A stretch of DNA of 44,949 nucleotides from a virus, in IMG/VR virus record IMGVR_UViG_3300032820_000021, positions 1 through 44,949 of that record; one strand, written 5' to 3'. Both the position numbers and the translations under genes were made by a program. Shown here one piece after another: positions 10,101-41,757 of this stretch. The notes beneath the pieces are model-generated. The model saw nothing but the letters and a program-made list of their open reading frames with translations, did not search any database and had not been told where the DNA came from. Within the stretch, counting starts at the first letter, position 1. Each line of letters starts with the position of its first letter.

Positions 10101-10631
10101 ATGGATTCACCATTAGCAGTATTACTTAGAAATGGCACTCATGGAGCCGCCACAGTTCGACTTGCATTAAAAGCCGAACAATTTTCTGTATCTATTGCTA
10201 AAACTCCTATTCAGATTCCAATACCCAGAAGAAATCCTGAATTATTAGATTTAGGTATTTTTAGACCCGCAATAACATTATCTGGTATAATAGATACTGA
10301 AGCAACATATATTGCTACAACAGGTAATAGCCCAGCGGGGACAAGAGGAATGGAAACATTAAATGTAAGTGGTGAAACATATTTCATCCCATATAAAAAT
10401 TACTTAGAAGAAGTAGCTATGAAATGGGTTACTGATACTTCTACTACATTACAAATAGAGTGGGGCGATACCACAACTCCTGTATCAACTAATAGTGCTA
10501 ACGCTACGGGTGGGGCTTTGTATCATGTTGCAATTCAACAGGCACAATTTTCAGTTCTACCAGCCCAAGAGGATAGATGGCAGTACACAATGCAATTTAT
10601 CGCCAAGGGTCGTAACGATATTACATTCTAG
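10101..10631 (+). CDS. Distal tail-like minor tail protein
   Basis: A 176-aa protein with a good AGGAG ribosome binding site. It starts 10 bp after the small membrane protein gene and ends 8 bp before the large tail-tip gene, so it occupies the position of distal tail (Dit) or a similar baseplate ring protein. Sequence features are beta-rich with PIQIPIPRRNPELLDLGIFR and a segment ISGIIDTEATYIATTG-like pattern followed by a C-terminal strand (WQYTMQFIAKGRNDITF). That resembles the N-terminal galectin-poor core of short Dit proteins. The assignment rests mainly on gene order. Confidence 0.55.
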   Translation: MDSPLAVLLRNGTHGAATVRLALKAEQFSVSIAKTPIQIPIPRRNPELLDLGIFRPAITLSGIIDTEATYIATTGNSPAGTRGMETLNVSGETYFIPYKNYLEEVAMKWVTDTSTTLQIEWGDTTTPVSTNSANATGGALYHVAIQQAQFSVLPAQEDRWQYTMQFIAKGRNDITF

Positions 10632-15185: not shown

Positions 15186-15228
15186 AAGGTATGGCTAAAT
15201 GCCAAAGTATAAGACAGGAGATAAGACT

Positions 15229-15648
15229 ATGACTTTAAGAAAATATGACACGATTCATAACACTATAACGGATTTATTTGATTCCAAATGGTTTAACTTT
15301 GTTGCACCAGAGGAAAGATACCCAATGGATATTATAGAACGTCCAACAGAGTATCAAATCCGAATTGCAATTCCCGGTGCAGAAAAAGATGGAATTTTAG
15401 TTAATCTAGATAACGGATCACTAAAAATATCCGTTGAAGGAAATGCCACTTCAGAGGCTGACTCTGATAACAAATATTTATATAAAGGTATAAAAGCCTT
15501 TAATTATTCTAGGACGATTCCTAATATAGCACAGTACAATGTAGTAATGGACGAGATTAAGTCTGCGTACAAGAATGGCATTCTTAGTATCACAATGCCC
15601 AAGGCTGAAGATGCACAGCCCAAAACTATATCTGTACAGGTAGAATGA
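15229..15648 (+). CDS. Small heat shock protein (Hsp20 family)
   Basis: A 139-aa alpha-crystallin-type chaperone. The core domain spans about residues 32-127: a first strand after PMDIIERPTEYQIRIAIPG, then LVNLDNGSLKISVEG, and the family hallmark near the end, YKNGILSITMPK (A/Y-x-N-G-I-L). The C-terminus has the ISV motif that docks on the neighbouring dimer. ATG 15229 is preferred over ATG 15199 because AGGAG lies 8 nt before it, while 15199 would have almost no leader after the predicted transcription start. Hsp20 proteins hold unfolding proteins without ATP. They occur in many marine T4-like phages and may aid host survival or capsid assembly here. Confidence 0.9.
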   Translation: MTLRKYDTIHNTITDLFDSKWFNFVAPEERYPMDIIERPTEYQIRIAIPGAEKDGILVNLDNGSLKISVEGNATSEADSDNKYLYKGIKAFNYSRTIPNIAQYNVVMDEIKSAYKNGILSITMPKAEDAQPKTISVQVE

Positions 15649-16145
15649 CAACATTATTAGATAATTACATATCCTTCCTGCCCTCTGAAGGGCAGGAGGC
15701 TATTTCTATAGCACGAGAGGAATGTCAAGAGCCGCTATCTATTTTATCTGCTATCCATTGGGTAGCACACCATAAAGATGTAGATGATAAATTAGGTAGA
15801 TTGTTAGTAGGCGAAATAAATAAAATTTTAGATAGACTTGGTAATTCTAATAATTCGTCTTTAACTGTAAAATCGGCTGCTGCATTAACATTAACACCAG
15901 ATAGATGTTTTGATATCTGTTTCCATAATTGGGAAGATTATGAGCAAATACAACAATCGGTAAAAACACTTGAACGATTTTTAGGTAGACGAATGTATAT
16001 ACGTCCTAATCATATAAAATGGCCTACTAAGAAAACTTTAATTACTAGGTTACAAGAAGATTCTGCAAATCGTAAAAAGACCCCGACATCCTCACCCATG
16101 AAAAAATGGAATTACCAGAAGGATGAAAATGCTAATCAACAATGA
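15645..16145 (+). CDS. Unknown protein after Hsp20
   Basis: A 166-aa protein whose ATG overlaps the Hsp20 stop (ATGA). It is mainly helical, with an aromatic-rich middle (CFDICFHNWEDYEQIQQ) and a basic, disordered C-terminal tail. No catalytic motif, zinc ligands or membrane segment is seen. An 11-bp GC-rich hairpin sits inside its first codons (15674-15699), which could limit read-through from the strong Hsp20 promoter. The next gene begins inside its last 20 codons. Function unknown; the position between Hsp20 and a sigma-like factor suggests an early accessory gene. Confidence 0.65.
   Translation: MTTLLDNYISFLPSEGQEAISIAREECQEPLSILSAIHWVAHHKDVDDKLGRLLVGEINKILDRLGNSNNSSLTVKSAAALTLTPDRCFDICFHNWEDYEQIQQSVKTLERFLGRRMYIRPNHIKWPTKKTLITRLQEDSANRKKTPTSSPMKKWNYQKDENANQQ
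15674..15699 (+). promoter_or_regulatory. Strong hairpin, 11-bp stem with CTGA loop
   Basis: CTTCCTGCCCT (15674-15684), loop CTGA, AGGGCAGGAGG (15689-15699) can form 11 bp with one U-G pair. It lies 26 nt after the Hsp20 stop but within the next reading frame, and a 5-bp hairpin (GCTAT/ATAGC) follows. There is no T-run, so it is not a classical terminator. It could protect the 3' end of the Hsp20 message or slow the downstream gene. Confidence 0.45.
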
Positions 16146-16647
16146 TTTAATTAATCAATGGGAACCTAAAGTACAAAAGATATCTTCTACAACATTTATT
16201 AAAGGAATGGATAGAGATGATATTGCTCAAGAATTACGGATAGTTTTAGTTAAAGCAGCTAAAAAATTTGATGAGGCTCGTGGAGTTTCTTTTCATACTT
16301 ATTTACATACAGCTATGATGAATACAATCCGAACTCTTATTTCACAGGCACAGCGAGTACCTAACATAAATAGTTTGGATGAAACCTTTGCGGACTCTGA
16401 GTTAGTACCGTTAGAAATTGTGGAAGCTTTATCGGAAGACCCTGATTTAGATGGTTCAATGTTAGTAGATGATTTAATTAATCAGTATAATATTTCCGAT
16501 GACGAGAGAAGTTTTATTATGTTACGTATGGATGGAATGACGATGGGTGAGATTACTGTTGATTTAGGAGAATCTGCATATAAGATTAGACAATCATTAA
16601 GAGATAAATTGCATGGAAACTCATCAGAAACTACCTTCCACCTATAA
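16129..16647 (+). CDS. Sigma-70-like RNA polymerase sigma factor
   Basis: A 172-aa protein with a sigma region 2 pattern near its N-terminus (RDDIAQELRIVLVKAAKKFD, then GVSFHTYLHTAMMNTIRTLI) and a region 4-like C-terminal helix-turn-helix (DDERSFIMLRMDGMTMGEIT then a second helix). Sigma factors direct RNA polymerase to promoters, and small phage sigmas usually switch on late genes. ATG 16129 is preferred over ATG 16123 since AGAAGG ends directly before 16123 but lies 6 nt before 16129. It overlaps the end of the previous gene by 17 bp. The repeated TTAGTATAAT promoters of this window are possible targets, although they also fit the host sigma70. Confidence 0.75.
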   Translation: MLINNDLINQWEPKVQKISSTTFIKGMDRDDIAQELRIVLVKAAKKFDEARGVSFHTYLHTAMMNTIRTLISQAQRVPNINSLDETFADSELVPLEIVEALSEDPDLDGSMLVDDLINQYNISDDERSFIMLRMDGMTMGEITVDLGESAYKIRQSLRDKLHGNSSETTFHL

Positions 16648-20340: not shown

Positions 20341-22304
20341 TGTCAGTCATTACAACGGCAGAAGAATGCGTTTCTGCCCTTGAGAGCCTTAAAGGGCTTG
20401 ATAAGCTAGTTGTTGATGTTGAGACAAATGGTTTACAAGCCTTTGGGTGGAATCAATTATGTGGGGTTGGTATAGCAACTAGCCCCAATGATTCCTTATA
20501 TTTCCCTTTTAGGCATCAATCAGGTGAAAATTTACCCATTGCTTTTGCACATGACTTGATGGCGTTATTATCCGAATGTAAAACATTGATTGGATATAAC
20601 TTAAAATTTGATCTACATTTTCTAGCTAACGATGGTTTAGAGGTTAAAGATCAGCAATTAGTAGATGTTATTGTAATGGTTAGAATGTCTGAACATTCAG
20701 ATACAAAAGACCTTGGATTAACAGATACTTTAATTCGTACTTATGGTTCGGAATATGGACAGTATGATGTAGACACAAAGAAGTTACTTCGCAAGAATAA
20801 ATGGAATAAAGATTTTTCATTAGCCCCACCAGATATTTTAGGGCCATATTGTGAGCAAGATGTCTTAATGACATATAAACTTTATGAAGATCGTTTTGAG
20901 AAATTAAAAGAAACAAAACAATTAGACTTACTTAACATGCAATGTGAGTTAACTAAAGTTTTATACAAGATGGAAAAACGAGGGATTAGTGTAGATCAAA
21001 CTTATGCTACACAAACTAATGAACAGTTGGCTGTCCGATTAGAAGACATTACTAAAGATATTCATCAAATCGCAGGGACAGAATTTAATATAAGTAGTTC
21101 TCAGCAGATTGGAGAAGCTTTTGCAACTTTGGGGATATCTTCTCCAGTTAAAACTGCCAAGGGAGCCGATTCATGGAGTGAGTCAGCTTTAATTCAAATT
21201 GACCACCCAATGGCAGGATTGATAAGGCAATATAGAACTTTATTGAAATTACAATCAACGTATATTGAACCTTATTTAGATATTCCTGACAACACTATGC
21301 ATACTTCTTTTTGTAATTGGGGGGCTGCAACAGGTAGACTGTCTAGTAGAGAACCAAATCTACAAAATATACCCAGAAATCACTTTAAATTAAAGTACAA
21401 TGAATTAACAGATTCAGATTTAGCCGATGTGAAAAATAGAATCGCAGCTACAATGGCTGCTAAAGGGCAAAGTACTGAGAGTACTAACTTGTCTAATGAA
21501 GTTCTACAAACATGGGGTTTTATGGGAGATGAATCTTTTGATGAAGACTCAGGTAAACAGATTGCTATAAGAAGATTGTTTGTACCCCGACCTAATTATA
21601 CTTTAGTCGGTTTTGATTACTCTCAAATGGAAGTTCGTGTTTTTATGTCATACTTTCGTAATGAAGTAATTGATGCTTTATTAAATAAGGATGATGTAGA
21701 TTTTCATGGTGAGGCGGGGAAATTAGCCTTTAATACAACTGAAGATGACGCTGATTATAAATTCTATAGGCAAATGGCGAAGGCAATTACTTTTGGTACT
21801 ATTTACGGTATAGGACGCAATAAATTAGCCTTGCAATTAGGAACTACGCCCCATGAGGCGGGACAGTATAAAAAACGCTATTTCGATGGCCTAGAGGGGT
21901 CTAAAGAGTTTTTTGATAAGGTAGTCGAAACTGTAGAAAGTCGGGGATGGATACGCAATAGATATGGACGAGTATATAAAATTAATCCTAAGTTTGCTTA
22001 TAAGGGAGTAAATTATTTAGTCCAAGGAACTAGTGCCGATATCATGAGTGAACGAATGATTGAGGTAGATAAATATTTAGAAACTACAAAAAGTAATATC
22101 TTATTACAGGTACATGACGAGATTATCTGTGAAATACACGATGATGATCTACGAAATATACCATTTAAGATAAAAGAGTTGTTAGAAATTAATTCCTTAG
22201 ACATTCCATTACAGGTAGATATGGAAGTTTGTACACCTTCTTGGGCAACTAAAAAGGATTACATTAAACCTGACGACTCAGTTGAAAATTATATTGATTG
22301 GTAA
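20340..22304 (+). CDS. polA: DNA polymerase, family A with 3'-5' exonuclease
   Basis: A 654-aa polymerase with both proofreading and polymerase domains and no 5'-3' exonuclease. Exo I is DVETNG (Asp26, Glu28), Exo II GYNLKFDLHFL (Asn87, Asp91), Exo III YCEQD (Tyr170, Asp174). Polymerase motif A is GFDYSQMEVRV (Asp426), motif B RQMAKAITFGTIYG (Lys481, Phe485, Tyr489) and motif C VHDEI (His592-Asp593). Phe485 matches Phe762 of E. coli Pol I, the ancestral residue for nucleotide choice. Between the exonuclease and motif A there is an insert (about residues 355-410) not needed for catalysis. It starts on a TAATG overlap with the SSB-like gene. It is the replicative polymerase of this phage. Confidence 0.95.
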   Translation: MSVITTAEECVSALESLKGLDKLVVDVETNGLQAFGWNQLCGVGIATSPNDSLYFPFRHQSGENLPIAFAHDLMALLSECKTLIGYNLKFDLHFLANDGLEVKDQQLVDVIVMVRMSEHSDTKDLGLTDTLIRTYGSEYGQYDVDTKKLLRKNKWNKDFSLAPPDILGPYCEQDVLMTYKLYEDRFEKLKETKQLDLLNMQCELTKVLYKMEKRGISVDQTYATQTNEQLAVRLEDITKDIHQIAGTEFNISSSQQIGEAFATLGISSPVKTAKGADSWSESALIQIDHPMAGLIRQYRTLLKLQSTYIEPYLDIPDNTMHTSFCNWGAATGRLSSREPNLQNIPRNHFKLKYNELTDSDLADVKNRIAATMAAKGQSTESTNLSNEVLQTWGFMGDESFDEDSGKQIAIRRLFVPRPNYTLVGFDYSQMEVRVFMSYFRNEVIDALLNKDDVDFHGEAGKLAFNTTEDDADYKFYRQMAKAITFGTIYGIGRNKLALQLGTTPHEAGQYKKRYFDGLEGSKEFFDKVVETVESRGWIRNRYGRVYKINPKFAYKGVNYLVQGTSADIMSERMIEVDKYLETTKSNILLQVHDEIICEIHDDDLRNIPFKIKELLEINSLDIPLQVDMEVCTPSWATKKDYIKPDDSVENYIDW

Positions 22305-25438: not shown

Positions 25439-26151
25439 TTGAAAGAGTTACTATAACAGGAGCCGATAATTCGGTTCACCCAAAAGAACTTGTGGGATTA
25501 AGTACAGTATATCCATTCGTTGAATGGGGAATTTTACTGCCTCAATCAGAAGCTACTGGACTATATAGATTTCCAACTAAACAATGGATTTTAGATTTAT
25601 TACATTTATGTACAGAACTAGATGGTGGAGATGTTTATTCTAGTATTAAATTATCTGCCCATATATGTCCTCCATATTCCACAGACATAATTCAGACGGG
25701 AGATATAGATAATGTTTTAGAGGATTTAGATATAGACTTATCTAGTTTCGGACGTATACAACTTAATGTTCATGGTATTCCTTTATCTTCATATTGTTCT
25801 CAATTTGTAGATTGGTGTAAGAATAGTCCACAAGAAATTATTTTACAGGCAGATGGAGTAAATGATTGGATTGCACGAGGCATTCCAAATACCTCAGTTT
25901 TATATGACACTTCTAGCGGTGCAGGAATTTTTCCTGACCAATGGCCTAATCACACTCAATCAGAAAAGTTTTTTGGGTATGCTGGGGGTTTAAATATAGA
26001 TACTTTACCTTCAGCTATACAAGAATGGACAAACAAAGGAATTTCTAAACCTTTTTGGATTGATTTAGAAACAGGAGTTCGTAGGGAAGGTTTATTTAAT
26101 GTCTCTAAAACTCAAGAAATATTAGATTATACGAGATCATATATAGGATAA
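25435..26151 (+). CDS. TrpF-like TIM-barrel protein
   Basis: A 238-aa protein with an (alpha/beta)8 feel and the phosphoribosylanthranilate isomerase-like ending: FFGYAGGLNIDTLPSAIQEW (strand-glycine loop) and FWIDLETGVRREGLFNVSKT, comparable to the phosphate-binding GGL and the D-x-S/E-S/T-G-V-E motif of TrpF. The N-terminus is VTITGADNSVHPKELVGLST. TrpF isomerises phosphoribosylanthranilate in tryptophan synthesis, but no other trp gene is present, and the usual N-terminal catalytic Cys (K-I-C-G) appears to be TITGAD here, so a different sugar or nucleotide substrate is likely. It starts in an ATGA overlap inside the recombination operon. Confidence 0.6.
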   Translation: MIERVTITGADNSVHPKELVGLSTVYPFVEWGILLPQSEATGLYRFPTKQWILDLLHLCTELDGGDVYSSIKLSAHICPPYSTDIIQTGDIDNVLEDLDIDLSSFGRIQLNVHGIPLSSYCSQFVDWCKNSPQEIILQADGVNDWIARGIPNTSVLYDTSSGAGIFPDQWPNHTQSEKFFGYAGGLNIDTLPSAIQEWTNKGISKPFWIDLETGVRREGLFNVSKTQEILDYTRSYIG

Positions 26152-28308: not shown

Positions 28309-29976
28309 ATGGCAGAAGAAATAACAACTATTAGAAATGCACTATCAACATTAGCAGACGGATTAACGGAGCAAGAAAAATACGAGGTCGGGTCGTTTCG
28401 TAATTTCGTTCAGAACATTTGGTGCTATGGTTATGATAATCCAGAGTATTTTAACGCTTGGCATGTTTCAGTTATTACTGAAGATGTTGAAGAATGTATG
28501 GAACTCGGTTTAAATTATTGTGCTATTCTTCCTAGATTTCATTTTAAGTCTACTGTATTAGGTCATGCCTTTAGTGTATGGAGATTATTAACTGCCCCAC
28601 GAGATTGCTCTGTGCTTTATTTATCATATGCCGATCATATGGCTAGATACCATATTGCTGAAATAAATAAAACAATTAATAGAAATCCTATGATGGCGGG
28701 GATGCTAGAAAATAGAAATCCAAAAGCAGATTTCTCGGCTAGATTTTATAGAAATAACCAACCAATGGAAATTACACATGGTGGTCTTTTTTCATTTAAA
28801 AGAGGTATGCATGTTAATGGAGCCTTGATAGCAGATGACGTTATGCGTGATCCAGAAAATCCATTAAACATTACTCAGCTTACTAAAGTTGAGGATCATT
28901 TTATGACGGAATCATTGTTTATTCCGTTAAAAGGTGTACCTGTTATAGTACTAGGAACACCTATGTTACCCGGTGATTTATTACATAAATTACAAGAAGA
29001 TACTCGTTTTAAAACTAGAGTTCTTCCCGCACTAGACCCAGCCCCTGATCGAAGGGTGCTGATGCCAGAACTATATACTGAGGAGTGGTTACTAGAACAA
29101 CAGAAAGCACGACCTAAATCATTTGCTTCTGAGTTTATGTTAACGCCTCACTTTGCAACGGAAGCTTATTTTGATGAAGATGACATATCTAAATGTGAAA
29201 ATTCTTCATTAATTAACTATCCGTCTGCTAAACCATTTACAAACATCGAATCAGGTGATCAATTATTTGGGGGGTTTGACGTAGGTAAAAAACGTCACCC
29301 GTCCCATTTAGTAATTTTTAAAAAATCAGGAGAACGAATAGAACAAATTCACTCATCCTTTTTGGATGGCTGGTCGTACTCAGATCAAATTGTTTTCCTT
29401 AATGAAGTAGCTGAGAACTTTGAATTAACTATGGGTTTTATTGATAATACCCGTGGAGAATTAGAAGATAGAGGTTTGGATGCTAGATGGCATTCAATGA
29501 TTTTTTCACGTAAAAGTAAAAATACTATGGCACATGTTTTTGAAGAATTTGTGCATGGAGGTAATTTACACTTATTAGAAGATGAGCGACAGAAACAACA
29601 GATTTTGTCAGTTAGTAATGAACTGAAAGCCCCTGAGACTCCTACAGGTCATGGCGATGCTTTTTTCTCCATAGGAATGGCGTTACAAGCAATCCATGAT
29701 ACAGCATATAAATTTACAGACTTAGGTAGTGCCGTGTCTTGGTTGGATGCGGTATCTCCGGGTGAGACTCCTGAAAGTAGGGCGCAAGCAGTTGACGATC
29801 TGAACATGAAGGATTATACTAAAGAAAAGGTGTTTGGAAAGTTACAGATGGAACCAGCTAATGAGCATTCCATAGCGACAGAAGCCCCTAATCCAAAATG
29901 TCGAGAAGCCGTTTGCAACTCGTCTTTTTGGGTTCCAGAAAATAAATTATGCATTTACTGTGGTGCAAGAGGATAA
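28309..29976 (+). CDS. terL: Terminase large subunit
   Basis: A 555-aa packaging motor. The Walker A is the classic-style PRFHFKST (75-82), with Walker B LIADD (Asp176-Asp177) in GALIADDVMRDPENP. The RNase H-type nuclease shows GGFDVGKKRHPSH (Asp324) and MGFIDNTRGELED (Asp379). The last 25 residues hold a zinc-ribbon-like tail: Cys531-x4-Cys536 and Cys548-x2-Cys551 (NKLCIYCGARG). That tail is not part of the standard fold. It cuts concatemeric DNA and pumps it into the procapsid through the portal (34497). Confidence 0.93.
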   Translation: MAEEITTIRNALSTLADGLTEQEKYEVGSFRNFVQNIWCYGYDNPEYFNAWHVSVITEDVEECMELGLNYCAILPRFHFKSTVLGHAFSVWRLLTAPRDCSVLYLSYADHMARYHIAEINKTINRNPMMAGMLENRNPKADFSARFYRNNQPMEITHGGLFSFKRGMHVNGALIADDVMRDPENPLNITQLTKVEDHFMTESLFIPLKGVPVIVLGTPMLPGDLLHKLQEDTRFKTRVLPALDPAPDRRVLMPELYTEEWLLEQQKARPKSFASEFMLTPHFATEAYFDEDDISKCENSSLINYPSAKPFTNIESGDQLFGGFDVGKKRHPSHLVIFKKSGERIEQIHSSFLDGWSYSDQIVFLNEVAENFELTMGFIDNTRGELEDRGLDARWHSMIFSRKSKNTMAHVFEEFVHGGNLHLLEDERQKQQILSVSNELKAPETPTGHGDAFFSIGMALQAIHDTAYKFTDLGSAVSWLDAVSPGETPESRAQAVDDLNMKDYTKEKVFGKLQMEPANEHSIATEAPNPKCREAVCNSSFWVPENKLCIYCGARG

Positions 29977-29994: not shown

Positions 29995-31821
29995 ATGACA
30001 ACATTAACAAAACAAGCTGAATTTGTCGCATCCAAGCGATATTATCAAAAAAATTCTGACGGAGAAGTCATAGAAAATGGTGACTCTCTATTTAAACGTG
30101 TAGCCACAGCTATTGCAAGTGTAGAAACTATACACTATGGGGCTATACCAATTCAGTCTGACCTAGTTGCATTAGAGTTTGAAGAAATTATGGCTAGTTT
30201 AGAATTTATACCCAACTCTCCCACATTAATGAACGCAGGAACTGAGCAAGGTACACTATCTGCGTGTTTCGTTTTACCTTTAGAAGATAGTATGGAAGGT
30301 ATTATGAAGGCAGCTACTGATACTGCTATGGTTCAAAAGTTTGGTGGTGGGACAGGATTTTCGTTATCAAAAATACGACCTAAAGGGGATCGTATTAAAA
30401 CAACTCATGGAATTGCCTGTGGCCCTATCGAGGTGTTAAAAACGCTGTCACGAGTTTCTTCTATGATAACACAAGGAGGAAAACGTGATGGGGCTAATAT
30501 GGCTGTTATGGACGTTACACATCCTGATATTATGGACTTTATACGATGCAAGTATGTGGAAGGTGACATACATAATTTTAATATCAGCGTGGCTTGCGAC
30601 TCTAACTGGATTAAGAAAGCGGAAGCGAGGGTAGAGTATGATTTAATCAATCCTACTAATCGACAGGTGGTTGGTTCACTAAATGCGGGAGAAGTACTGG
30701 ATGAAATTATTCAAGGTGCTTGGAGAAACGGTGAACCCGGTATGATATTTATTGATAGGGTAAATAAAGATAACCGAGTTATTAATAGATATGGTGAAAT
30801 GATTGCTACAAATCCTTGTGGTGAACAACCCCTGTTAGGAAATGAATCATGTAACTTAGGTTCCATTAATTTAGCAAAATTTATTCTGGACGTACCTCTA
30901 AATAGTTGGAGTGAACGTGTAGATTGGACACGTTTAGAATACGTAACACGACTTGCTGTACGTTTTTTGGATAACGTAATTGATGCTAATGAGTACGCAA
31001 CTCCTGAAATAGAAAGAATGACAAAAGCAACTAGAAAAATTGGTCTGGGTGTAATGGGTTTTGCTGATGCTTTAGTTAAATTAAACATCCCATATAATTA
31101 TGAAGAAGGTCAAGATGTTGGGACAATAATGATGAGTTTCATTCGTGAATGGGCGGATGACGAATCTAGAAAATTAGCTATTATGCGTGGGCCTTTTCCT
31201 GCGTGGTCAGATAGTGATTATGAAAATCCTATAAGAAACGCTTGTAGAACTACTGTTGCGCCCACAGGTACAATTTCAATGTTAGCAAATTGCTCTAGTG
31301 GAATAGAACCACTATTTGCTTTAGCATGGACGAAACAAAATATTCTAGAAGGTGAATCCCTTACATATGTAAATGAGTTATTTGAGGCTGATGCCAAAGA
31401 AAACGGTTTTTATTCGGAAGAGTTAATGGAGTATCTAGCTAATGGAGGTTCTTTACAAGATAGAGAGGAAGTTCCAAGTTGGGCTAAAGAACTTTATCGA
31501 ACAGCCCCAGAAATTGCTCCCGAAGATCATGTAAAGATGCAAGCAAGTTTTCAACCTTATGTTGATTCAGGAATTTCTAAAACTATAAATTTCGCTAATG
31601 ATGCAACTATAGAAGATGTTAAAGCAGCTTATTTAAATGCTCATGAATTAGGGTGTAAAGGAATTACTGTTTATAGGGCAGGAAGTCGAGAAAAAGAAGT
31701 CTTAGTTAAGGGAACGCAAGAAGCCGAAACATTCGATTGCTGTGATAATCCCAACATAATTTATGAATCTGGTTGTCACAAGTGCTTAACGTGTGATTGG
31801 AGTGCGTGTGAAATTGCTTAG
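29995..31821 (+). CDS. nrdJ: Class II (B12-dependent) ribonucleotide reductase
   Basis: A 608-aa reductase of the adenosylcobalamin type: one polypeptide, no NrdB-like radical subunit gene nearby. NSPTLMNAG and LSACFVLPLEDS (Cys91) start the barrel; NPCGEQPLLGNESCNLGSINL has the radical Cys275 and the partner Cys286; APTGTISML is the late barrel motif. The C-terminal tail has a Cys-rich redox segment (Cys594, 597, 600 and 605 in GCHKCLTCDWSACEIA) that in this family receives electrons from thioredoxin or glutaredoxin. It makes deoxyribonucleotides for phage DNA. The predicted selenoprotein redoxin at 33791 is a natural reductant. Confidence 0.93.
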   Translation: MTTLTKQAEFVASKRYYQKNSDGEVIENGDSLFKRVATAIASVETIHYGAIPIQSDLVALEFEEIMASLEFIPNSPTLMNAGTEQGTLSACFVLPLEDSMEGIMKAATDTAMVQKFGGGTGFSLSKIRPKGDRIKTTHGIACGPIEVLKTLSRVSSMITQGGKRDGANMAVMDVTHPDIMDFIRCKYVEGDIHNFNISVACDSNWIKKAEARVEYDLINPTNRQVVGSLNAGEVLDEIIQGAWRNGEPGMIFIDRVNKDNRVINRYGEMIATNPCGEQPLLGNESCNLGSINLAKFILDVPLNSWSERVDWTRLEYVTRLAVRFLDNVIDANEYATPEIERMTKATRKIGLGVMGFADALVKLNIPYNYEEGQDVGTIMMSFIREWADDESRKLAIMRGPFPAWSDSDYENPIRNACRTTVAPTGTISMLANCSSGIEPLFALAWTKQNILEGESLTYVNELFEADAKENGFYSEELMEYLANGGSLQDREEVPSWAKELYRTAPEIAPEDHVKMQASFQPYVDSGISKTINFANDATIEDVKAAYLNAHELGCKGITVYRAGSREKEVLVKGTQEAETFDCCDNPNIIYESGCHKCLTCDWSACEIA

Positions 31822-32135: not shown

Positions 32136-33548
32136 ATGTTTAAAAGAATTCTTGAAAAGGTTACTATGCCTAAGATTACTTTACCTACGGTAAAATTTAG
32201 TTTGCCTAGTGTAAAAGTACCTACAATAACTATACCTATTAAGAAAATAGTTACTGTATTAGGGATAATCAATACTTCAATTTTAATTACAATAGGTGGT
32301 TTGGGGTTATTTGTTTCGTATATAAACCCAATTCCTTGGATCACTCCGTACATTCAATTTTCAGTAGCTAATCAGCTATTTGAATATGTTCAATATTTAC
32401 AAGCAAATTCTATGTATACAATTGGAGCCTCTTCAGGTTTAATTGTGTTCGGATTATTGCTTCATGTAGCGAACTTTAAATCGTGGTGGAAAGTAATAAA
32501 AGCCACCCCAATGGCAATTGTTCGATCCCCACTTAACGCATATAGAAAAACGGTTATTTGGAGAAATTGGATTCTTGCAAAAATCAATTATTTAAATGAA
32601 GAATCTGCCAAATGGAAAACATTTTTTAAAGTTGCCATGTCTCCATACTCTTTACTTAGAGCGATGGGATTCAGTCCTCAAATGGCGGTAGGTTTATTAG
32701 CGGTTGGTTCTACAGCTGCGGGTGGTGTCGCAGTCAATGAAACAATATTAGCTGAACGATCCTTTACAAACGGGGATAGCGGTATTTATGCTGCCCCTGC
32801 TCAACAACCGTCTGCTACCCTTGAGCAATCAATGGCGTGGAGAAAAGACAATAAAGAGGACAATACATTACGAATAGTTCTTGGTTCTACTCCAGTAAGA
32901 GAAATTAGAATTGAAAATGTATCCGTAGGAACTGTATATAACGGTTCAGCAATACCTTCATCAGCATACACACCTACTGGTGGTACTGCGGCTTCGGCTA
33001 CAGCAGTATTGATTGGTGGAGTTGATGTCCAAGGAGAAAACACAACTGATACGGTTCTAGAAATCGGTGAATTAATAATTGAAAAATCCCGCTGTACTAT
33101 GATGTATTTTGATAATATCGAGGCTCATACCATAAAAGTTATTGGAAATGCTTCGGACGGTCAAAGTATTAACACTACACCGGGAACCTCACGAATGCGG
33201 GCAATAGGGGGTGGACACCATCAAGCAGAAGCAATGATAACCTCTGGCGGATCATATGACAGAATACATATAGATGCTCCCACAAGTAATGTTAATGGGA
33301 AGATAGATAAACTAACCCTTTCAAATTTATATACGGAAGGTGGTGCTTGTGTATTTGATCGAATGAAGGTCGGCACACTTATAGTTGAATTAAACGAAAT
33401 AGGTGGCGGTGGTAATGCGGGTGCTTCGGATGGATTTGCAACAAAAGAATTTAAAATTAATCAAAGTGTAACTTCCGCTAATTGGACAGTAACGGACAAC
33501 GTTGAAGTTGCTATAGGCGCACCTACTCAAACTTTAACTAACGAATAA
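32136..33548 (+). CDS. Membrane-anchored protein with beta-rich C-terminal domain
   Basis: A 470-aa protein of unfamiliar architecture. The N-terminus holds short Pro-spaced repeats (ITLPTVKFSLPSVKVPTIT). Three likely membrane segments lie at about residues 37-62, 93-112 and 183-203. The C-terminal part (about 240-470) is Gly/Thr-rich and strand-rich (IGELIIEKS, FDNIEAHTIKVIGN, IDKLTLSNLYTEGG, VGTLIVELNEIGGG) with a beta-helix or stacked beta-sheet look. Such a combination (membrane part plus tail-fibre-like outer part) could be a virion protein inserted in the host membrane or a protein displayed on the infected cell. No known family was recognised. It lies between the reductase and the redoxin gene. 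Confidence 0.6.
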   Translation: MFKRILEKVTMPKITLPTVKFSLPSVKVPTITIPIKKIVTVLGIINTSILITIGGLGLFVSYINPIPWITPYIQFSVANQLFEYVQYLQANSMYTIGASSGLIVFGLLLHVANFKSWWKVIKATPMAIVRSPLNAYRKTVIWRNWILAKINYLNEESAKWKTFFKVAMSPYSLLRAMGFSPQMAVGLLAVGSTAAGGVAVNETILAERSFTNGDSGIYAAPAQQPSATLEQSMAWRKDNKEDNTLRIVLGSTPVREIRIENVSVGTVYNGSAIPSSAYTPTGGTAASATAVLIGGVDVQGENTTDTVLEIGELIIEKSRCTMMYFDNIEAHTIKVIGNASDGQSINTTPGTSRMRAIGGGHHQAEAMITSGGSYDRIHIDAPTSNVNGKIDKLTLSNLYTEGGACVFDRMKVGTLIVELNEIGGGGNAGASDGFATKEFKINQSVTSANWTVTDNVEVAIGAPTQTLTNE

Positions 33549-33559
33549 GGTGTATTACG

Positions 33560-33667
33560 ATGGGTTGGAAAAACTCAGAATTATGGGGACTGTTAATACA
33601 ACTGGCAGTCCTCTTCGCCATTGGCGGACTTGTAGCAATTTTATCAATTGGTATAATTAATGGCTAG
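33560..33667 (+). CDS. Very small membrane protein
   Basis: A 35-aa ORF with one transmembrane segment (LWGLLIQLAVLFAIGGLVAI region) and almost no charged residues after Glu7. It sits 11 bp after the long membrane gene, with weak ribosome binding sequence, and overlaps the zinc-knuckle gene by 8 bp (ATGGCTAG). The hydrophobic stretch and tight packing support a real gene, but its function is unknown. Confidence 0.45.
   Translation: MGWKNSELWGLLIQLAVLFAIGGLVAILSIGIING
33630..33657 (+). promoter_or_regulatory. Possible promoter TTGTAG-16-TATAAT
   Basis: TTGTAG (33630-33635) and TATAAT (33652-33657) are 16 nt apart inside the 35-aa gene, directly before the zinc-knuckle and selenoprotein redoxin genes. 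Because it overlaps coding sequence it may be chance. Confidence 0.3.
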
Positions 33668-33791
33668 AAGGAACTGGACAAAATGCCGTTGTGGTGTTAA
33701 ACTAAATGTTAAAAAAGGTCATAAGGTATGTTACCTTTGTGAAAAGAAGATAAGAAAAGGGGAATTAGATTTAACTGTAAGGAGGCGATAA
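33660..33791 (+). CDS. Small zinc-knuckle protein
   Basis: A 43-aa basic protein with C-x-C (KCRCG) and C-x2-C (VCYLC), four cysteines that could bind one zinc. It overlaps the previous ORF by 8 bp and its stop overlaps the ATG of the redoxin gene (TAATG), so the two are translated together. Coupling to a redoxin and to the reductase upstream suggests a role in the same redox step or in metal handling, but this is inference. Confidence 0.55.
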   Translation: MARRNWTKCRCGVKLNVKKGHKVCYLCEKKIRKGELDLTVRRR

Positions 33792-34018
33792 TGCCTGATA
33801 TAACTGTATTTACATCTAAAGGTTGAGGCCCATGTGCAATGACCAAGATGTGGTTATCAGATAGAAATTATGAATTTACTGAATATAATGTTTCCGAAAA
33901 TCTTGAATACGCAGACGATTTATTGCGTATGGGATTTAGAGTTACACCAGTAACCGTAATCGGAGATAATATGATCGTGGGCTTTAGCCCTCAAAAATTA
34001 GAGAAAGCGTTAAGTTAA
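33791..34018 (+). CDS. NrdH/glutaredoxin-like selenoprotein (in-frame TGA = Sec)
   Basis: A 75-aa redoxin read through one in-frame TGA (33824-33826). It has the thioredoxin-fold start ITVFTSKG, then U12-G-P-C15 where NrdH and glutaredoxins have C-x2-C, then the helix AMTKMWL. The cis-proline loop is VTPVTVIGD (Pro53) and the end GFSPQKLEKAL matches the NrdH-type GF-x-P-x-KL tail. AAGGAGG lies 5 nt before the ATG. If TGA were a stop, an 11-residue peptide would result, yet the frame stays open and redoxin-like for another 63 codons. A hairpin with SECIS features follows. TGA ends about ten other genes here, so it is a normal stop elsewhere. The product would reduce the class II reductase. A sequencing error (TGT or TGC) is the main alternative. 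Confidence 0.8.
33839..33857 (+). promoter_or_regulatory. SECIS-like hairpin after the in-frame TGA
   Basis: ATGACCA (33839-33845), loop AGATG (33846-33850) and TGGTTAT (33851-33857) pair over 7 bp (one G-U). The loop begins 20 nt after the TGA and has G as its second base. Bacterial SECIS elements bind SelB through a stem-loop at this sort of distance with a G in the first two loop positions, so the fit is good. Confidence 0.6.
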
Positions 34019-34047: not shown

Positions 34048-34494
34048 ATGCCTATAGGAAGTATGTTAGACGGCATGGATCAACAATATGTCGCTACAAA
34101 AGATGAGAAAGGTACATGGCGCATTTTAAATGCGTGGCATGACGAAGTTAAAATGATGAGTGCGGAAGAGGATGTCCCCGATGATAGTCCTGCTGTAACC
34201 GTCTTAACTGAAGGCGAGTTTATAGCTTTGATTAAAGAAGCTGCTCGTGCTGGAGTTTTAGAGAATGCTAATTTTGGGACAGGGGAAGCAGAATTAGAAG
34301 CAATTATTCTTGATAAAGATCAAGAAATTCAGAAACTTCATGAAGATATTCTTAAATTAAAAGAAGAAAAATCAGAAGTTGTTAGGGATACCTCTCATAC
34401 AGAGCAATATAAATTAAAAGAGAAAGCAATGGAGTCAATCCTTAAAATGGTTTCTATAAGTGATATGGCGAACTTGACTAATTCTGAGGATTAG
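34048..34494 (+). CDS. Coiled-coil protein upstream of portal
   Basis: A 148-aa acidic protein. The N-terminal half includes a small mixed region (YVATKDEKGTWRILNAWHDE); residues about 90-130 are a charged heptad coiled coil (ILDKDQEIQKLHEDILKLKE). It is the first gene after the TATAAT box and is followed after 2 bp by the portal gene. Such a position suggests a head-assembly accessory role. Family unknown. Confidence 0.6.
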   Translation: MPIGSMLDGMDQQYVATKDEKGTWRILNAWHDEVKMMSAEEDVPDDSPAVTVLTEGEFIALIKEAARAGVLENANFGTGEAELEAIILDKDQEIQKLHEDILKLKEEKSEVVRDTSHTEQYKLKEKAMESILKMVSISDMANLTNSED

Positions 34495-34496
34495 AT

Positions 34497-36428
34497 ATGA
34501 AATTATCCGAATACATGCCGCAAGTACCTCAAATGGTACAGCAAATGTCTGATTTAAATAATCAGATAAACATGTTTCAATTAATGAAGTCCGCAGGAGA
34601 AACATCTAAAACTCCTACAATTGGGCTAGACCATATAGTTAATACGTGGGTACGCCACCAGATGGCGTATAGACAACAGCTTGTAATGGATTTACAAACA
34701 GTTGCTATGTCTGTCGAAGAAATTCGTGGCCCACTTAACCATATCACTACTGAAGTATTTAGAAGAGGTCTTGAAATAGTTCCAAAAGTTTCTGACCCTG
34801 ATCCCGAACAAAGGGAAAAGATTTTAGAGTGGTTAGTAGATGCTAACTTATTTGATCAAAGTTTAGAAGAAGTCTTTAGACAATTTCATTTTGACGTAAA
34901 CTCTTTAGATGATGGGTTTTTGTATTTAGCTAAAGAGTACAAAGATATGGGTAATAAAACAGTACGATCTAGAGTAACAGAGATTCGTAGATTGAATCCT
35001 GCTCTGGTTGAATTTGATTTAGATACTCAAGGACTTCCTAAAAATGCCCATTTTATTTGTCCTATTCATAGGGATAATGCAACTGAAACATCTGGGCCAT
35101 GTTCTGAAGATGATTGTGATATACAAAAACTTCCTGCAATGTACACTTATTATCATAGGAATAATAGGATGTATTTATTGGATAATGAAATAATACATCT
35201 AAGTAAATTTTCTCCATCTGAAACATATGGTTGGAGTCCAATCTTAACAATCTTTGAAAAGGCTTTAACACTTATAGGTATGGATAAAAACCTCTATAGG
35301 TATTTCTTTGAAAGAAAAATGCCCGCTGCTATGGTTATGGTAACTACTGATGACCCTGAGTCATTACGTAGAGAAAGAGAACATATTGCGGCACAAACAA
35401 GATTAGACCCGAACTATATCCCAATGGTAGCTGTATCTGCTAGAAACCAAAGAGGTAGAGTTGATATGGTTAGACTATTCCATACTCTACAAGAGATGGA
35501 TTATTTACCTGTTAGGGAAGAAATACGAGAACGTGTTGCTGCAATGTGGGGGGTTACCCCAGCATGGCAAGGCGCACCCGAAGCGTTTGGTGGTCTATCT
35601 ACCCAAACTCAACAATTAGTTGTTATGAGTCGTGTTGTAGAAAGTGACCAAAGACTTTTCCATGAAAAAGTATTTCCCGCTTTGTTGAAAGCTTTTGGTG
35701 TTACAGATTGGGAAATTAAATTACCAAATCCTGAAGAAAAAGCTGAATCTACTAGATTAAGTATGGCACAGCAAAAGGTACAGATTGTTTCACAGTTTGC
35801 CCAATTAGGATTTGATGTAGAATTAAAACAAGAAAATGTTGCTTTAGATGAAGCAGAATTTATAATAAGTGGTTCACCTGTACCAACTGCTCAGATGAAT
35901 GCTGAACAAATGGCTATGGGACTTCAACAACAAAAAGAACAATTTGAAATGCAGGAACAACAACAAGCGATGATGGGAGCCGAACAAGCGGCTGACGAAG
36001 CTGTTCCAGAAGCGGCAGAGGGGGAAGAAGGTGAACCTGTGCAAGCTATGTTGAAGACTATACCACAACATAAAAGAAAATTTAAAGGACGTACTGGTGG
36101 GAGAACACCTGATTGGCATGACAAAGCCCCTAATGAAGAACGTGACATTGACGAATATGCAGAAGCACGATCTAAAAATGATCTAACGCTTAGTTCAGAT
36201 TTTATGACTTCATTATATAATAAGGGTTATACTGCTCCAGAAATTAAGGAAGTCTCTCCAGATTTCTCTAAGATGTGGTTTGCCCAAAATGGTACAGATT
36301 ATGTAGCATCACTTGGCCCATTAGGTGTAGTGGATGTAGAAAAAGCTACTTTTCCTAAACCACCTGAAAGACGGCAAACACCTCCAGCTAGTACACCTAC
36401 AATTGAGGATGATGATGCCGATTACTAA
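34497..36428 (+). CDS. Portal protein with zinc-finger-like insertion
   Basis: A 643-aa portal subunit. Recognisable features are the early helix (QMAYRQQLVMDLQTVAMSVE), ITTEVFRRGLEIVPK, IRRLNPALVEFDLD, the wing region NEIIHLSKFSPSETYGWSPI and the long helix with ALTLIGMDKNLYRYFFERKM. An insertion with Cys188-x2-His191 and Cys202-x4-Cys207 looks like a zinc finger, not a standard portal part. The last 170 residues are Gln/Glu-rich and then loop-like (GRTGGRTPDWHDKAPNEE), so this is longer than a minimal portal. It forms the dodecameric ring through which DNA enters. A strong GAGGA ribosome binding site lies upstream. Confidence 0.85.
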   Translation: MKLSEYMPQVPQMVQQMSDLNNQINMFQLMKSAGETSKTPTIGLDHIVNTWVRHQMAYRQQLVMDLQTVAMSVEEIRGPLNHITTEVFRRGLEIVPKVSDPDPEQREKILEWLVDANLFDQSLEEVFRQFHFDVNSLDDGFLYLAKEYKDMGNKTVRSRVTEIRRLNPALVEFDLDTQGLPKNAHFICPIHRDNATETSGPCSEDDCDIQKLPAMYTYYHRNNRMYLLDNEIIHLSKFSPSETYGWSPILTIFEKALTLIGMDKNLYRYFFERKMPAAMVMVTTDDPESLRREREHIAAQTRLDPNYIPMVAVSARNQRGRVDMVRLFHTLQEMDYLPVREEIRERVAAMWGVTPAWQGAPEAFGGLSTQTQQLVVMSRVVESDQRLFHEKVFPALLKAFGVTDWEIKLPNPEEKAESTRLSMAQQKVQIVSQFAQLGFDVELKQENVALDEAEFIISGSPVPTAQMNAEQMAMGLQQQKEQFEMQEQQQAMMGAEQAADEAVPEAAEGEEGEPVQAMLKTIPQHKRKFKGRTGGRTPDWHDKAPNEERDIDEYAEARSKNDLTLSSDFMTSLYNKGYTAPEIKEVSPDFSKMWFAQNGTDYVASLGPLGVVDVEKATFPKPPERRQTPPASTPTIEDDDADY

Positions 36429-40416: not shown

Positions 40417-41757
40417 ATGGCTAACCCAAGTTTGAGCGAATATCTTGCTCAGTCTCAACGTGGTCTGTATCAGTCAGTATTCGGCCCTGAATACTTACAG
40501 AAGCAGTCCTATTTTACTGTTGATACTGCAACAGGTATATTCAATACAACATATGGGCGTAAAGTCTGGCAAGCCTTGAATAACCAGACTCGTTTTTTCA
40601 ATGCCATACCAAGAGTTGTGTGGGGCAACACAGCTGGTTGGAGGGTCAGGACAGACAGAGGTTCCAACAGGAGCCGACCTGTAACTGAAACTGGCGCACT
40701 TCCAACAGTTGATGTGTCTAACATTGCTACGGTAAGTTCACTACCACGAATTGTATCGACCACCTTTGGTGCATCGGTCAAGTCGGTCTTCACAGCACAG
40801 CTTGAAGGTGGCGTAGGGGACGTATTGGCACTTGAGAACGAGAACGCTCAAGTAGACCACATCAAGGAAATGAACGAAGAACTACTCGCTGGTTCTGCGT
40901 ACATAGCATCAGCAGGATCAGGAACAGCCTTTACTGTTCCAGCTGCTATAGCTAAACACTTTAAAGTCGGGGACGCAGTTTCTCAAAGAGACATCTCCGC
41001 TGGTGGATTTGACAGGACTTCTGGTTCCGTTGTTTCCGCTGTAAATGAGTCCACAGGTGTTGTTACTGTTGCTAGCGGTACTACATTTGCCGATGGTGAC
41101 CTAGCCTTCATATACAGCAGGGCTGGTCTTACATCCATTGACGACATTGTTAACGAAGACGGAGTCACCTATGGTGGTGTGTCTGGTGGTGGACAAGCCC
41201 GTGCATATGACCTATCTTATGGTGGTCGTACTGCTGGTGGCTGGAACGCTGCTGCCAACGTTGACATGAACGGTGGAACTGGACGAGCATTGACTCTCCA
41301 GATGGTTGATACAGCTATTCAGAAAATAAGAGAGAATGGTGGTGAACCAAAACTTATTGTTATGGGTCATGATCAGTATTTCAACATGAACAGACTGTTG
41401 AATGCCAACCAAAGGTATATGGGTCAGGAAGAGTACCAAGTTGGAGTTGGTTCCGAAAGGACTTTCCCCGGTACACGAACTGGTCTAGTACTCGCTACTT
41501 ATCAAGGAATTCCAATTCTACCAGATGCGGATACTCCTAAGTCAGTAGCATCCAATGACGCTGTACTAGGTTCAAACATTTATGTTTTGGATACAGACTA
41601 TCTAGAAATCGCAGTTGCTCAACCTACTCAGTATGTTGAGAACCGTGACTACTTCGCAGCAAATGCTCTAGTTGTTAGAGGATTACTCTACACTATGGCT
41701 GAGATGCGATGTAAGAACATCTGGGTTCAAGCAAAAATTGGCGACCTGAACGCTTAA
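40417..41757 (+). CDS. Major capsid protein (HK97-like fold)
   Basis: A 446-aa capsid protein. The N-terminal arm contains an aromatic start (LYQSVFGPEYLQKQ) and WGNTAGWRVRTDRG; the E-loop/spine region includes TETGALPTVDVSNI. A domain rich in VGD and T/V repeats (about 160-235, with AIAKHFKVGDAVSQ and VNESTGVVTVASGTTF) appears inserted and resembles the beta modules of the tail tube protein. The axial part carries NGGEPKLIVMGHDQYFNMNR, typical of the A-domain, and the end RGLLYTMAEMRCKNIWVQAK is the final strand. It is preceded by the scaffold-like gene and followed by a terminator, as for the most abundant virion protein. Confidence 0.85.
   Translation: MANPSLSEYLAQSQRGLYQSVFGPEYLQKQSYFTVDTATGIFNTTYGRKVWQALNNQTRFFNAIPRVVWGNTAGWRVRTDRGSNRSRPVTETGALPTVDVSNIATVSSLPRIVSTTFGASVKSVFTAQLEGGVGDVLALENENAQVDHIKEMNEELLAGSAYIASAGSGTAFTVPAAIAKHFKVGDAVSQRDISAGGFDRTSGSVVSAVNESTGVVTVASGTTFADGDLAFIYSRAGLTSIDDIVNEDGVTYGGVSGGGQARAYDLSYGGRTAGGWNAAANVDMNGGTGRALTLQMVDTAIQKIRENGGEPKLIVMGHDQYFNMNRLLNANQRYMGQEEYQVGVGSERTFPGTRTGLVLATYQGIPILPDADTPKSVASNDAVLGSNIYVLDTDYLEIAVAQPTQYVENRDYFAANALVVRGLLYTMAEMRCKNIWVQAKIGDLNA

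Follow-up and report, generated by a model that had tools for sequence, protein, structure and literature searches.

Results

The redoxin gene and its product

The DNA analysed here, hereafter the window, is the whole stretch of 44,949 nucleotides of the IMG/VR virus record IMGVR_UViG_3300032820_000021. It carries a short gene for an NrdH/glutaredoxin-like redoxin, whose features are collected in Table 1 together with those of the neighbouring genes. The redoxin frame opens with the ATG at 33791, closes with a TAA at 34016–34018 and has a TGA as its sole interruption; the first-pass annotation had described an AAGGAGG site, an ATG and an NrdH-like frame broken at this codon only, and the sequence reads exactly so. 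A strong Shine-Dalgarno sequence likewise precedes the redoxin in the sister contigs.

Table 1. Features of the redoxin locus and of its surroundings in the window
Feature	Position (nt)	Strand	Remarks
Terminase large subunit	28309–29976	+	Conserved upstream neighbour
Class II (adenosylcobalamin) ribonucleotide reductase NrdJ	29995–31821	+	TIGR02504; presumed redoxin client
Conserved gene of unknown family	32136–33548	+	Between reductase and redoxin; no family match
Four-cysteine zinc-ribbon-like ORF	33660–33791	+	43 codons, CxC...CxxC; stop overlaps redoxin start (TAATG)
Shine-Dalgarno AAGGAGG	33779–33785	+	5 nt 5' of redoxin ATG; read directly
NrdH/glutaredoxin-like redoxin gene	33791–34018	+	75 codons, UGA read as residue 12 (G-U-G-P-C)
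In-frame TGA	33824–33826	+	Replaces first Cys codon of UxxC motif
SECIS-type hairpin AUGACCA-[AGAUG]-UGGUUAU	33839–33857	+	Apical loop 33846–33850, 19 nt past UGA
Conserved unknown gene	34048–34494	+	Just 3' of redoxin
Portal protein	34497–36428	+	

With the TGA read as selenocysteine (Sec, U) the gene translates as MPDITVFTSKGUGPCAMTKMWLSDRNYEFTEYNVSENLEYADDLLRMGFRVTPVTVIGDNMIVGFSPQKLEKALS, and the TGA falls on the first, catalytic Cys of the CxxC motif. The read-through protein is matched by the Pfam family Glutaredoxin (PF00462, E=3.4e-12) over residues 4–62 of 75, on both sides of the TGA, and an AlphaFold2 model, built on 30 family members, displays a thioredoxin-like fold with a pLDDT of 96. 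The top PDB match was E. coli NrdH (1h75), and the top NCBIfam match was the NrdH-redoxin family (TIGR02194), with which the phage protein shares length, fold, a single thioredoxin-like domain, the cis-Pro TPV, the C-terminal GF/GYxP stretch and the location beside a ribonucleotide reductase. It differs from that family by a Sec codon where NrdH has its first Cys (giving GUGPC), by a score under the curated cut-off (63.6 vs. 85.75 bits) and by its client, which would be a class II NrdJ instead of the class Ib NrdEF. A weak profile match (48.3 bits, under the curated cut-off of 66) was also obtained with NF041212, which belongs with its relatives to the UXX-star family, small glutaredoxin-like selenoproteins with Sec first; the phage redoxin, unlike these, retains the second Cys (UxxC).

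Linkage to a class II reductase

The glutaredoxin/NrdH fold and the CxxC-type site go together with a genomic link to a ribonucleotide reductase. The gene starting at 29995, proposed at first pass to be a class II reductase, indeed scored 639.8 bits with the NrdJ_Z profile (TIGR02504, cut-off 399.95), and a reductase lies near the redoxin wherever a contig reaches that far, the divergent G029 group included. In sister contigs that are long enough and outside the G029 group, the order terminase, class II reductase, at least one small gene, redoxin, conserved unknown gene and portal recurs, and the four-cysteine ORF that overlaps the start of the redoxin is kept in several sister phages but not in all. 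The C-terminal tail of the reductase is rich in Cys, with six cysteines in all 23 sequences compared and the pattern CC...GCxxCxxCxWSAC in the examples seen. NrdH-redoxins accept electrons from thioredoxin reductase and in turn reduce a ribonucleotide reductase. This tail is inferred to be what the redoxin would reduce, there being no biochemistry on the electron transfer.

Nature of the host

Genes for a sigma-70 region 2 protein (nt 16123–16647, Pfam E=1.7e-11), a RecA of bacterial type, a DnaG-type primase, a family A polymerase and a DnaB-type helicase are present in the window, and this gene content indicates a bacterial host. No isolated phage showed a DNA match to the window. At the protein level, the portal and the major capsid protein (nt 40417–41757) matched, among isolates, only haloarchaeal siphoviruses, with 26–30% identity. 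The major capsid protein also matched one Methanofastidiosa virus; the replication genes look bacterial.

Conservation of the TGA codon

Relatives of the redoxin were fetched from IMG/VR with patterns that did not ask for a TGA, one describing the C-terminal motif and another the N-terminal motif written with a Cys codon, which returned 34 loci. A search for homologues in related phage contigs had been proposed by the first-pass annotation. At the critical codon, 33 of the loci carried TGA within an intact frame; the remaining one (L133) encodes a distant Cys protein with 30% identity. A DNA pattern including the TGA retrieved 46 stretches, 44 of which were redoxins of the family (44 contigs overall). 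The same pattern with TGT or TGC retrieved 18 stretches, comprising two redoxins (L095 and L099) and one thioredoxin-like protein (L098), none of them close. A close Cys version of the redoxin was thus not found in IMG/VR, either with the patterns free of the TGA requirement or with the TGT/TGC pattern; if the redoxin is indeed a selenoprotein, the lack of such a revertant implies that Sec is worth keeping over Cys in this protein. Bacterial genome contigs searched with Cys codons at the site gave a single match, a chance similarity of 12 residues in another gene; homologues with TGA in bacteria are not excluded by this search.

All of the family records are metagenome assemblies, several of them from what we take to be deep-ocean or oxygen-minimum-zone viromes, and a sequencing or assembly error, or else a decayed gene, had to be considered. 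However, the same codon recurs in dozens of contigs, which come from over 20 metagenomes, DNA identity around it averages only 51–67% between relatives, protein identity to the window redoxin goes down to 38%, and the frame downstream is under protein and RNA constraint. The presence of TGA in 33 of 33 close relatives at such levels of divergence denotes an old, selected conservation and no error. We therefore regard error or pseudogenisation as refuted by the relatives, with a residual probability that is negligible, and the first-pass view that the gene is not decayed holds, as the sister phages keep the frame intact around the TGA. On the comparison of these sequences, the recurrence of TGA in the redoxin is far above chance expectation.

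TGA as an ordinary stop elsewhere in the genome

Nothing was found in favour of a genome-wide reassignment of TGA in the phage (code 4 or 25). TGA terminates 11 of the 53 ORFs on the list of likely genes in the window, and the sister phages close those genes with TAA or TAG at nearly the same point. A scan for conserved in-frame TGA gave, unfiltered, only shadow reading frames; in the frame-filtered comparison of TGA-containing frames over 34 contigs, no gene other than the redoxin had an internal TGA that was broadly conserved. The sister stops and the absence of any other such gene rule out a genome-wide reassignment, which we likewise consider refuted and as good as impossible, in agreement with what had been claimed from the window alone.

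One of the genes ending in TGA in the window encodes an HSP20 small heat-shock protein (nt 15199–15648, Pfam E=1.5e-14), and its stop is TAG or TAA in sister phages.

A conserved SECIS-type hairpin downstream of the UGA

In bacteria, the SECIS element lies inside the coding sequence, 3' of the UGA. The first-pass annotation had suggested a SECIS prediction as a check, and a hairpin of the bacterial type was found after the TGA in every member of the family, that of the window beginning 12 nt past the UGA. The published geometry of bacterial SECIS elements comprises a spacing of 16–37 nt between UGA and apical loop, a loop of 3–9 nt, a stem of 4–16 bp, a G among the first two nucleotides of the loop and an energy limit of -7.5 kcal/mol (PMC13188914). 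A hairpin meeting this geometry was present in all 32 distinct family sequences, with a spacing of 19–23 nt, a stem of 6–8 bp, a loop of 3–5 nt and the G as first or second loop nucleotide; the loops start with GUC, GGC, GAU or GUG, the hairpin of the window and three others having AGNNN. The family hairpins thus agree with the consensus in spacing, loop, stem and loop G, whereas their energies mostly do not reach the limit: in isolation they are weak, from -3 to -9 kcal/mol with most above -7.5 kcal/mol, and 36-nt folds range from -5.9 to -10.7 kcal/mol, only some passing the limit. Folding energies of single sequences did not separate the hairpin from shuffles, so that the case for it rests on comparison and not on energy.

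The comparison was made in several ways. Ordinary TGA stops of the same contigs were followed by a hairpin reaching -3 kcal/mol in no more than 8 of 99 cases (8%), and resampling with synonymous codons gave one in only 5.6% of 3200 sequences. Codon choice within the stem is biased, Thr18 being encoded by ACC in 29 of 32 sequences (ACC usage among the Thr codons of the window is 9%) and Lys19 by AAG in 31 of 32 (usage 26%). The stem fixes rare or non-preferred codons, which is a constraint at the level of synonymous codons. Over 30 aligned sequences 88.3% of the helix is paired, compared with 47% at most when the partner strand is slid, and columns 17 and 33 show compensatory changes between C-G and U-A, with at least four switches on a portal-protein tree. 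In a tree-based paired test the independent pairs were not numerous enough for the sign test to reach significance. A covariance model of the SECIS found one strong site per genome, always at the redoxin, in the window and in five long sister genomes, and only a weak match in the divergent G029. No Rfam family matched the hairpin, and a relaxed pattern search with it gave just six further matches, all non-homologous.

A divergent group of phages (L044, L048, L054 and L065; contigs of about 24–106 kb, G+C 0.42–0.44) carries the same Sec redoxin near a reductase. The hairpin is kept in this group with other letters (CGAAAGC-GUG-GCUUUCG in L044), unrelated in sequence to the others and located 4 nt further out, and these phages may have a different host and a different SelB.

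Search for decoding machinery

No tRNA was found in the window, no tRNA-Sec above the cut-off in the 44 phage records (many of which are fragments) and no SelA or SelB in the 12 longer ones. A bacterial selenoprotein requires SelA, SelB, SelC and SelD in the cell; as the phage records yielded none of the genes for SelA, SelB or tRNA-Sec and the host has not been identified, decoding by host SelB and tRNA-Sec is an inference. Four weak Rfam matches that could have represented a phage-borne tRNA-Sec were rejected, as they proved to be tRNA-Tyr. These tRNA-Tyr genes (GTA), which score weakly as tRNA-Sec, occur one each in G004 (20768–20849), G021 (1395–1480), G029 (25886–25969) and G033 (10247–10330), corresponding to loci L067–L070.

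A suppressor or otherwise unusual tRNA might decode the UGA as Cys or another standard amino acid, the product being an ordinary CxxC redoxin; Cys would work in principle and is present in most phage NrdH relatives. Scanning the loci revealed no suppressor tRNA, however, tRNA-Tyr being the only species, and TGT or TGC, one base away, is used by none of the 33 relatives. Moreover, this mechanism needs no SECIS, yet the hairpin is conserved at the level of synonymous codons. We consider it unlikely.

Still less likely, in our opinion, is that the UGA is a true stop with partial read-through, for instance a switch sensing selenium or redox state and gating the redoxin, in which case it would matter little which residue is inserted. 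The UGA codons for Sec are inefficient in bacteria, and the first 11 codons of the redoxin do not form a domain by themselves. A regulatory stop would nevertheless be free to sit anywhere, whereas in every relative the UGA coincides precisely with the catalytic Cys, and the family has retained the second one. Such a switch is in any case compatible with a selenoprotein, and both can hold.

Discussion

Selenoproteins have been described in bacteria, archaea, eukaryotes and a few eukaryotic viruses, and their genes are missed or truncated by gene callers. We consider it very probable that the redoxin described here is a phage selenoprotein, a Sec-NrdH decoded by the SelB and tRNA-Sec of the host and feeding the phage reductase, there being no data on the host, on Sec insertion or on activity. 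The conserved gene, its UGA, the hairpin, the codon constraint, the neighbouring reductase and the use of TGA as a stop elsewhere are observed; decoding by SelB, insertion of Sec, the reductase as client and electron transfer to it are inferred from established knowledge on selenoproteins and NrdH. The interpretation put forward at first pass is thus supported overall, all of its computable checks that yielded a result being in agreement with it, and its host-decoding part remaining inferred. According to the proposed mechanism, when the ribosome reaches the UGA of the redoxin the hairpin would serve as a bacterial SECIS element, to which host SelB carrying Sec-tRNA would bind, leading to insertion of selenocysteine at the UGA; the pairing of SelB with SECIS elements is specific to each lineage. 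The resulting UxxC redoxin would pass electrons to the C-terminal cysteines of the phage class II reductase, which belongs to the same cluster of genes, and the reductase so reduced would sustain the dNTP supply. That Sec would make the redoxin a more reactive electron donor is plausible, with no activity data at hand.

Bacterial Sec glutaredoxins (UxxC) are known, for example from Clostridium sp. OhILAs (PMC13188914, PMC9312934), and share with the phage redoxin the UxxC motif within a PF00462 protein and a UGA decoded by means of a downstream SECIS. They are, however, encoded by chromosomal genes of Sec-using bacteria and have not been described in phages, whereas the redoxin reported here is phage-borne. 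Sec glutaredoxins were also recorded in seawater by the GOS survey, with no assignment to phages (PMC2398784). A tRNA-Sec, called the first in phages, has been reported for Basilisk-like Bacillus phages, with no selenoprotein named (PMC6145125); in contrast to these, the family of the window has a selenoprotein gene and no tRNA-Sec was found in it. Beyond the Basilisk-like phages, no other link between phages and selenocysteine emerged from the literature searched, and phages and viruses are not mentioned in two recent reviews of prokaryotic selenoproteomes (including PMC13188914) or in a paper on selenoprotein prediction. The trait had been presumed at first pass not to be commonly described for phages and, in agreement, no description of a phage selenoprotein was found in the open literature, subscription papers and preprints being outside the scope of the search. 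What is new is thus the phage carrier, the subfamily and the linkage to the reductase; the decoding mechanism and the protein fold are known.

If the interpretation as a selenoprotein is true, the nucleotide supply of these phages depends on selenium and on the SelB and tRNA-Sec of the host, their host range is predicted to include Sec-decoding bacteria only, which offers a clue for locating the hosts of uncultured phages, and the family provides a natural set of very compact SECIS elements evolving over dozens of genomes. It is probable, in our judgement, that these redoxins constitute the first family of phage selenoproteins to be recognised, in a lineage of uncultured phages that has kept a Sec redoxin, equipped with a SECIS of its own, next to a class II reductase, by which phage DNA synthesis would be tied to the selenium metabolism of the host and the phages confined to Sec-decoding hosts.
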